A stretch of DNA of 64,000 nt from an uncultured Poribacteria bacterium. GTDB taxonomy: Bacteria; Poribacteria; WGA-4E; WGA-3G. This document shows positions 46,354-47,899 of the stretch, piece by piece. The notes under the pieces are model-generated. The model saw nothing but the letters and a program-made list of their open reading frames with translations. It made no database searches and was not told where the DNA came from. Position 1 is the stretch's first letter. Every line of letters begins with the position of its first letter. The position numbers and the translations under genes were made by a program. The stretch lies in assembly GCA_951828515.1 (NCBI GenBank), contig OX639992.1:3388217-3452216 (forward strand), given 5' to 3'.

Positions 46354-46505
46354 TTATAGAAAACTGAACACTCCTAAAAAGTACACCAGCAGTGGATACA
46401 TCGGAAATCAAGGGAATAGTCGGTTTTGGAATCCTAATGCTTTAGTTTTGGGAGGAAAAAACGCTCTCGTATGTGAGTCCATAGCGTTTTTTTTTGAAAA
46501 AACAC

Positions 46506-46534
46506 TTGACATTTTTAGCAAATTATGGTTTAAT
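46506..46534 (+). promoter_or_regulatory. Promoter for tnpB
   Basis: TTGACA (46506-46511), 17-base spacer, TTTAAT (46529-46534). The predicted start near 46541 lies at the 5' side of the structured leader. Confidence 0.75.
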
Positions 46535-46630
46535 AGATGTATCGTGTTGGCAGACATTTCCAGCGTTACCGCTTGGTAACGTGTCTGCCTCCCACTGGAA
46601 AGCGGATAAAAGCACGATACACGATAAACC
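46527..46630 (+). promoter_or_regulatory. Pseudoknot-capable leader directly before tnpB
   Basis: GTATCGTG (46539-46546) pairs with CACGATAC (46613-46620); inside, GGCAGAC (46549-46555) pairs with GTCTGCC (46583-46589) and GCGTTACC (46563-46570) with GGTAACGT (46575-46582). TTTCCAG (46557-46563) pairs with CTGGAAA (46595-46601) across the second stem, a pseudoknot. GGTTTA (46527-46532) and TAAACC (46625-46630) close the whole region right at the ATG. Confidence 0.7.
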
Positions 46631-47860
46631 ATGAGATTAACCTTTAAGTATCCTGTGTATCCGACACAGGAAGAAAAAAGAATATTAGAAAAGTGGTTGG
46701 TACACCTTTGCGACCTTCAGAACTCCGCTCGCCACGATAGACTGGTTGCGTATGAGACGGAAGGTACTTTTGTGTCGCTCTCTGACCAACAAACCCTTCT
46801 CAGGGTCGCGCGCGAGACGTATAACGACTTCCGTGAAGTTCCCCAAGATTTTCAAAACCATGCGCTCCGCAGAAACGACAAAGCGTTTACGGCTTTCCGT
46901 AAACGTTGTAAAGAAAACGCTGTAAAAAAAGGGTATCCTCGCTATAAAAAGCGTGTGCGTTCTCTGACGTGGAGTCTTCGCAAATATACCAAAGTCGTTC
47001 GTAAAAAGACCAAAGACGCTGAAAAACAAACGATTCGTGTTCGTGAGAATCCAATCATAGAAACCCAGTTTAGACACAACCGCTTGAGAGTGCCCAAGCT
47101 GGGTCAAGTCAAGATACGCATGCACCGCCCCCTACAAGGCGACCCCAAAGAAGTCACGATCATCAAGAAAGCGTCGGGGTGGTATGCCCATATCTCTTGT
47201 GAGATACCTGATACGCCGAAAGTTGAACCGACGGACGCGATCGCTGTTGACGTTGGCACGACCCACTACCTGACCACTTCCGAAGGCGAAAAAGAGAGCA
47301 ACCCGCGCTGGTATCGCAAAGCAGAAGGGTTACTCCGAAAACATTCTAAAGATCTTTCTCGAAAGAAAAAAGGGAGTCAGCGTTGGCAGAAACAACACCA
47401 CAAACTCGCTTTGCACCATGAACGGACGACAAACAGACGCAAAGACTTTATCGGGAAACTCGTTTACAAACTCTACCACCATCAGAAAAACAATGTGTTA
47501 GTGGCAGAGGGTTTAGGCGTATCCAATATAATTCAGAACAAACACCTCAGCAAGAGCATTGCCGATGCGTCTTGGGGTATCTTCTTTAAGTGGTGTGCAG
47601 ACATAGCCGAAAGAGACGGTCTGCACTTCCACCAAGTTGACCCTAAGAATACCTCGCAAACCTGCTCCGCTTGTGGTGAGAAATCGCAAAAGAAACTCTC
47701 TCTTGCGATACGGACCTTTGATTGTCAGTTTTGTGGACACGCTATGGACCGCGACCACAACGCTGCAATAAACATACTCTTACGGGCGGCTTGCGCCCAT
47801 CGTGGAGAGCGTTGGGTTACCAACCTCACTGAAACGAGAAACTTATCGGTAGACCGATAG
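46631..47860 (+). CDS. tnpB: TnpB, RNA-guided endonuclease of IS200/IS605 family
   Basis: 409 residues, apparently intact. Ancestor-type relative of Cas12. RuvC catalytic residues are visible: Asp207 in AIAVDVGTTHYL, Glu293 in VLVAEGLGVSNI and Asp375 in AMDRDHNAAINIL. Zinc-finger cysteines 345, 348, 365 and 368 (CSACG...CQFCG). The N-terminal part is basic and matches the recognition lobe (FKYPVYPTQEEKRILEKWL). No ribosome site precedes the ATG, which follows the structured leader directly. The guide RNA (omega RNA) is expected to overlap the 3' end and the right hairpins. Confidence 0.95.
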   Translation: MRLTFKYPVYPTQEEKRILEKWLVHLCDLQNSARHDRLVAYETEGTFVSLSDQQTLLRVARETYNDFREVPQDFQNHALRRNDKAFTAFRKRCKENAVKKGYPRYKKRVRSLTWSLRKYTKVVRKKTKDAEKQTIRVRENPIIETQFRHNRLRVPKLGQVKIRMHRPLQGDPKEVTIIKKASGWYAHISCEIPDTPKVEPTDAIAVDVGTTHYLTTSEGEKESNPRWYRKAEGLLRKHSKDLSRKKKGSQRWQKQHHKLALHHERTTNRRKDFIGKLVYKLYHHQKNNVLVAEGLGVSNIIQNKHLSKSIADASWGIFFKWCADIAERDGLHFHQVDPKNTSQTCSACGEKSQKKLSLAIRTFDCQFCGHAMDRDHNAAINILLRAACAHRGERWVTNLTETRNLSVDR

Positions 47861-47899
47861 GCTTGTTTTTCTTAACAAGCCCAAGTCTTTAGGCTTGGG
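47845..47899 (+). ncRNA. Probable 3' scaffold of TnpB omega RNA / element right end
   Basis: Three consecutive hairpins: ATCGGT/ACCGAT (47845-47858), GCTTGTT/AACAAGC (47861-47880) and CCCAAG/CTTGGG (47880-47899). For TnpB elements the omega RNA ends in the right end and takes its guide from the flanking sequence. Here the guide would begin just after GGGTAC (about 47903). Confidence 0.55.

Follow-up and report, generated by a model that had tools for sequence, protein, structure and literature searches.

A pseudoknotted leader with two possible pairing sites for its 5' end precedes transposon, homing endonuclease and defence genes in Candidatus Poribacteria

Introduction

Individual selfish genes with structured leaders have been described before. 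In the T4-family homing endonuclease genes I-TevI, mobE and segB, leader hairpins sequester the ribosome-binding site (PMC2988022); these hairpins are simple and gene-specific, lie over a real Shine-Dalgarno (SD) sequence and have a second promoter inside. Within the IS200/IS605 group of transposons, the transcript of IS200 tnpA has a highly structured 5' end (5'tnpA) of about 110-125 nt, which belongs to tnpA and is an sRNA after processing, and the accessible part of this source describes no shared leader on other genes (PMC12594629). The omega RNA, or reRNA, of TnpB is a structured RNA from the tnpB transcript that sits at the 3' end, runs into the right flank and fits its own TnpB.

Here we describe a structured leader that is found in front of tnpB but also in front of genes of quite different kinds. 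For genes whose products attack DNA it has the look of a new on/off control, an impression that comes from its 5' end being complementary to either of two sites, one of which is beside the start codon. No description of this RNA family was found in Rfam or in literature searches.

The element and its promoter

The source genome is a single contig of 5.85 Mb, and the stretch analysed, hereafter the window, comprises 64,000 nt of it. All features described below are on its plus strand. The element is of the IS200/IS605 type, with an LE hairpin (46431..46453) whose position and pairing are kept in other copies (e.g. CCCCCG..CGGGGG), a tnpB gene of 409 aa (46631..47860) matching the OrfB_IS605 and Cas12f1-like_TNB domains, and an RE hairpin (AAGCCCAAG..GGCTTGGG, 47877..47899). 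A terminator-like hairpin, AACGCT..AGCGTT followed by a T run (46460..46495), lies 5' of the promoter and recurs in related copies; it had been overlooked in the initial annotation, and a consensus promoter/terminator scan left it unflagged. The promoter consists of TTGACA and TTTAAT separated by 17 nt (46506..46534, with the -10 box at 46529-46534). The same scan reported no promoter at the leader because its rule excludes TTTAAT, and the call is based on the fixed spacing of the -10 box over 124 copies instead: in 105 of them the box ends 4-5 nt 5' of the first strand of the leader (the PA 5' strand, see below), so that, given the usual -10 spacing, transcription should start inside this strand. 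One short element lacking tnpB (L140) has kept the LE-like hairpin, the promoter, the leader and the RE-like hairpin.

The fold of the leader

The initial annotation had described the region from the promoter to the start codon (46527-46630) as four nested stems plus a pseudoknot, and every stem that it named is present in the sequence. The pseudoknot and the inner stems stand. The outermost stem, GGTTTA/TAAACC, was rejected as a part of the RNA; because it contains the -10 box, the RNA probably begins downstream of it, and it is not kept in other copies. The leader begins instead with the 5' strand of helix PA, GUAUCGUG (46539..46546), which likely holds the transcription start and is the partner of copy A, CACGAUAC (46613..46620). 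Helix P1 (GGCAGAC, 46549-46555, with GUCUGCC, 46583-46589) has inside it the P3 hairpin (CGUUACC, 46564-46570, with GGUAACG, 46575-46581) and is crossed by P2 (UUUCCAG, 46557-46563, with CUGGAAA, 46595-46601), which makes the latter a pseudoknot. Two parts had escaped the earlier reading, namely the short P4 (UCCC, 46590-46593, with GGA, 46604-46606), which encloses the P2 3' strand, and copy B, CACGAUA (46620..46626), a second partner of the same 5' strand that adjoins the start codon.

Even with the pseudoknot left out, the 104-nt fold reaches -43.2 kcal/mol as compared with -22.9 +/- 3.0 in shuffled sequences (z = -6.9). In an alignment of 25 leader sequences, 97.0% of the cells in the named helices are paired and 18 of the 33 pairs change on both sides, including six of the seven pairs of P2 and six of the seven of P3; none of 500 shuffles matched the observed pairing and covariation, and sliding the partners by 1-3 columns lowered the pairing to 25-46%. 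Helices PA, P1, P2 and P3 are thus proven by compensatory changes. P4, with 97% of its cells paired, is only consistent with these data because its C-G pairs hardly vary; in the window copy it contains one C-C mismatch. Divergent copies scoring 35-55 bits follow the same plan with different sequences. In L090/L128 and in L171, the P3 loop carries a hairpin-like insertion of about 25 nt, the remaining fold being intact.

One 5' strand, two partners

The most unusual feature of the leader, absent from the initial annotation, is that its 5' strand is complementary to each of two tandem repeats, A and B. B covaries with this strand just as A does, all three strands changing together through quite different sequences, and one variable position passes through four pair types in step across the three. 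Among 86 distinct triples, 5' strands paired with their own partners at -9.9 (A) and -8.8 (B) kcal/mol versus -5.1 and -4.5 with swapped ones, and when A and B were tested separately in this set, none of 500 shuffles gave energies as low as the own-partner values. Over 125 leaders the mean pairing energies are -9.8 (A) and -8.7 (B) kcal/mol, the stronger partner being A in 87, B in 26 and neither in 12, where the two are equal. A and B are therefore near-equal in energy, as a switch needs, although the same is also expected of a simple backup partner.

The layout persists where the sequence is unrelated and the repeat period differs. L145, from genus g5, has the tandem copies GAAAGCC-A-GAAAGCC, the L018/L022 leaders have GAUAAGG twice, and L314, on a phage-like contig, has GCAAUACA twice, 13 nt apart. 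In the leaders defined below as class II, ACUGG-like copies occur twice in 51 of 68 cases, three times in nine and once in eight.

Coupling to the start codon

At the other end, class I leaders mostly finish at an AUG, with C at -1 in 104 and at -2 in 106 of 116 cases, and copy B ends about 4 nt before it. The earlier remark that no ribosome site precedes tnpB is borne out on a larger scale: an SD-like motif at -4 to -17 is missing from all 125 class I leaders, whereas among window genes 21 of 53 have one ahead of the first ATG, and internal ATGs show one in 19 of 258 cases. The distance is greater at some class II loci, where about 40-200 nt separate the leader from the start of the main gene; several of these genes have a good SD (L312, L384, L371), and A and B are still present. 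The methyltransferase genes of L312, L323, L326, L336 and L392, for instance, lie about 100 nt downstream, each with its own SD; directly behind the leader there is nonetheless an AUG, from which a short ORF runs, about 30 codons long in L312.

Copies and distribution

The leader occurs hundreds of times in sponge-dwelling Poribacteria, about 40 of these in the source genome, where a DNA search found 33 matches, a covariance model built from 25 source-genome copies (R1) 40 and a broader model (R2) 43. Of 84 Poribacteria genomes, R1 matched 49, and these belong to a single order: all 38 of the source genome's genus (with 2 to 49 copies each), eight of 18 of the sister genus g19 and three of six of genus g5, which belongs to another family; the remaining genomes among the 84 searched gave no R1 match. 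A pattern search of one genome per species over 84,980 species returned 44 stretches, all from Poribacteria, and the exact class I and class II patterns had no match in 2.9 million viral contigs. As far as searched, the family is confined to one order of Candidatus Poribacteria.

In the source genome the leader stands at 36 of 47 tnpB hits and at 33 of the 36 open frames of at least 350 aa. The initial annotation had named unrelated, unstructured leaders on related tnpB copies as the outcome that would speak against it; what was found is this recurrent leader and, at two of the three other open genes, a shorter one of the same architecture. This shorter form is without P3 and has the 5' strand AUUACCUUAUC, P1 formed by GCGGUGGGU/ACCUACCGC and the pseudoknot GUUGUAGC/GCUACAAC, followed by two GAUAAGG copies, the second shortly before the AUG.

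The leader does not follow the divergence of TnpB. In the source genome the distances of the two show a weak correlation (Mantel r 0.26), and leaders with 90-92% identity are found on TnpBs that are 37-38% identical. The leader apparently passes from one element to another, and its recogniser is presumably not the individual TnpB.

Genes behind the leader

What else does the leader precede? Leaders with full or reduced scores stand before ORFs for GIY-YIG endonucleases at L118/L212, L143, L216/L318 and L236/L314, Pfam confirming GIY-YIG and NUMOD3 for L118/L212 and L143. In L118/L212 the start codon is changed to AUA and the GIY-YIG ORF follows about 40 nt on, in L216/L318 it follows about 190 nt on, and in L236/L314 it has its own SD 19 nt on. 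R2 also matched leaders before genes with no transposon nearby. A covariance model built from five such non-tnpB leaders ('class II'; R3) matched 50 of the 84 genomes and also recovered tnpB leaders at E 1e-8 to 1e-4 (rough values, the calibration having been shortened), hence classes I and II constitute one family.

By our count, recognizable DNA-modification or defence genes follow the leader at 24 of 73 class II loci, which were sampled from the best scores, the gene being taken as the longest plausible ORF near the leader and in some cases identified by likeness to a scanned relative. They include N6/N4 methyltransferases (L312, L323, L326, L336, L392, L337, L365, L348, L369, L149), a D12 methyltransferase (L355), a Type III Mod (L380), restriction enzymes of the BglII, DpnII, MvaI/BcnI and another type II family (L353, L343, L366, L391), HSDR_N (L390), ApeA-HEPN (L381), TIR (L385), HmaA-like helicases (L349, L363), FRG (L370), a nucleotidyltransferase (L384) and Hypoth_Ymh (L339). 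In a PADLOC comparison, 14 of 18 class II proteins matched at E 1e-5 or better as against two of 20 random window genes, both through generic domains; since the 18 came from among the larger ORFs, with the small membrane protein described below left out, this enrichment is an indication rather than an unbiased rate. The source genome has three clear class II leaders, one before this membrane protein, one before a methyltransferase and one before a small coiled-coil ORF, and just one of its 24 N6/N4 methyltransferase hits carries such a leader, from which it follows that most defence genes are without it: the defence bias belongs to the leader-carrying genes, not to defence genes at large.

A small membrane protein (MKTIL..GELTDADL..) stands behind 31 of the matches in the 73 class II loci, nearly half of the cases read, and belongs to no Pfam family above the cut-off. 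Small proteins directly behind the leader (L311, L143 at 2255-2367 and about 29 more) are about 110-130 aa long, with an N-terminal signal or transmembrane segment, a coiled coil and often a second transmembrane segment. Another small ORF, MD(M/L/I)LEELKARDERIE(R/K)LERALLLVLSLNVGNHLDKS, lies directly behind class II leaders in L313, L350, L373 and L388, and in L349 a second leader with that ORF is found near the HmaA-like helicase gene.

Two contigs deserve separate mention. One phage-like contig (G006:C178) carries a GIY-YIG copy (L314) as well as a class II copy; it has a tape-measure-like ORF and several GIY-YIG genes, one of them behind a divergent leader. In another genome, a small separate contig of 288 kb (G017:C2), which may be a plasmid or another mobile replicon, holds four of the genome's seven best class II leaders, next to BglII-type restriction and methyltransferase genes.

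How might the leader act?

While the data show the fold, the double complementarity, the links to promoter and AUG and the kinds of genes that follow, we infer exchange between A- and B-paired states, along with an effect of it on translation and any trigger. The RNA folds into a three-way junction of PA (the 5' strand with A), P1 with P3, and probably P4, the loop of P4 engaging the 5' side of the P1-P3 stem in the pseudoknot P2. With A paired, B and the AUG would be single-stranded and a ribosome could start without an SD site; with B paired, a helix would abut the start codon and initiation would fall. That the leader is a cis-acting 5' RNA in which strand exchange between A and B controls SD-less initiation is the reading we favour, at a little short of an even chance, and the initial suggestion, a leader with a pseudoknotted fold and a possible role in translational control, gains support to this extent. 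Mobile genes acting on DNA, i.e. tnpB and genes for GIY-YIG endonucleases, restriction-modification and Abi, would carry the leader, joined to its promoter, as a movable cassette that restricts how much of a dangerous protein is made, or when. Masking of the AUG does not explain everything, however, because A and B persist where the main gene starts downstream, several times with its own SD. That persistence fits an element of mRNA stability or transcription, in which the sealed 5' end would withstand 5' decay, or the leader would serve as an antitermination signal, giving mobile genes a portable and reliable start in any operon; B and A would then be backups for each other, keeping the 5' end paired when a ribosome covers B. 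A helix that encloses the RNA 5' end at a constant distance from the promoter, and the cassette-like movement of the leader between genes, also agree with this alternative, which nevertheless does not explain why the leader in most copies ends at an AUG without SD, and which we consider unlikely, if worth keeping in view.

The presence of one RNA family before many unrelated conflict genes, together with the near-equal A and B energies, would suit a sensor, the pseudoknot binding a ligand or a protein of the host or an infecting phage and thereby setting the A/B balance for a regulon of such genes. Most metabolite aptamers have more conserved unpaired bases than this leader, in which few are conserved across classes; there is no hint of a ligand and the Rfam riboswitch models gave no match, so that a sensor appears improbable. 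The scarcity of conserved unpaired bases also counts against a ribozyme that would cleave itself, either to trim the 5' end or to release a leaderless mRNA at the AUG. Its HDV-like strand order (P1-P2-P3-P1'-P2') and the conserved CC before an SD-less AUG speak for it, but the search with ribozyme models that the initial annotation had proposed returned no Rfam ribozyme match, the third short stem is not at the place of the HDV P4, and the strict duplication of A and B would not be expected, all of which leaves this option with little credence. Least probable is an RNA specific to TnpB, be it an extra guide or a site at which the TnpB of the element binds to regulate its own gene. Most copies do reside in IS200/IS605-type elements, and even the ORF-less L140 keeps its leader; yet TnpBs of 37% identity share leaders of up to 92% identity, the leader model had no second match at the 3' ends of element loci, and the class II loci already contradict it. 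The 'extra transposon RNA' considered in the initial annotation is unlikely because the same family fronts GIY-YIG, methyltransferase, restriction and Abi genes at loci that show no transposon.

Returning to strand exchange between A and B, a wider reading, possible but doubtful, would have Poribacteria maintain an RNA-based regulon of conflict genes, in which pseudoknotted leaders with this switch are a common post-transcriptional signal for transposon nucleases, homing endonucleases, restriction-modification and abortive-infection genes, some of these members on phage-like or extrachromosomal-looking contigs. Copies A and B provide a defined handle on how bacteria restrain DNA-cutting genes and on whether a control signal is common to selfish and defence genes, and the covariance model finds such genes without protein homology, including the uncharacterised small membrane protein.

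Comparison with known systems

What is new, according to Rfam and the literature searched, is that one RNA family is common to TnpB transposons, homing endonucleases and unrelated defence genes. As a conserved structured RNA between the promoter and the start codon of many genes, the leader has the general character of cis-regulatory leaders. It shares with HDV-like ribozymes the order of strands P1, P2, P3, P1', P2', covariation backing P1, P2 and P3. The ribozymes, however, have P4 between P1 and P2, an L3/P1.1 and a free catalytic C, and the leader lacks all three; only 4-5 nt separate P1' from P2', and the C's there are paired in P4, which encloses P2'. Thus, of the initial description as HDV-like in strand order without P4 or a catalytic C, the order and the absence of a free C hold, while a short P4, placed differently, is consistent with the data. 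The leader has, in addition, the extra helix PA and the tandem copies A and B. The Rfam HDV-type models gave no match at E up to 10 (for the divergent copies, none at E up to 1), which together with the displaced stem argues against membership of the HDV-like group.

Like omega RNA, the leader is structured RNA from the tnpB transcript, but it is 5' of the ORF, lacks a match at the 3' end and is not bound to a TnpB lineage; TnpB-specific guides or autoregulation were rejected because TnpBs less than 40% identical and non-TnpB genes have such leaders in common. With 5'tnpA it has in common that the mRNA of an IS200/IS605-group transposon is highly structured at its 5' end. The T4 homing endonucleases provide a precedent for leaders that restrain a selfish nuclease, both systems having a structured 5' region before selfish endonuclease genes, those for GIY-YIG enzymes included. 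A T4-type helix covering an SD is nevertheless not what is found in the 125 class I leaders: in place of simple hairpins specific to one gene, there is one pseudoknotted family with no SD, two alternative partners for its 5' strand and a range of unrelated genes behind it.
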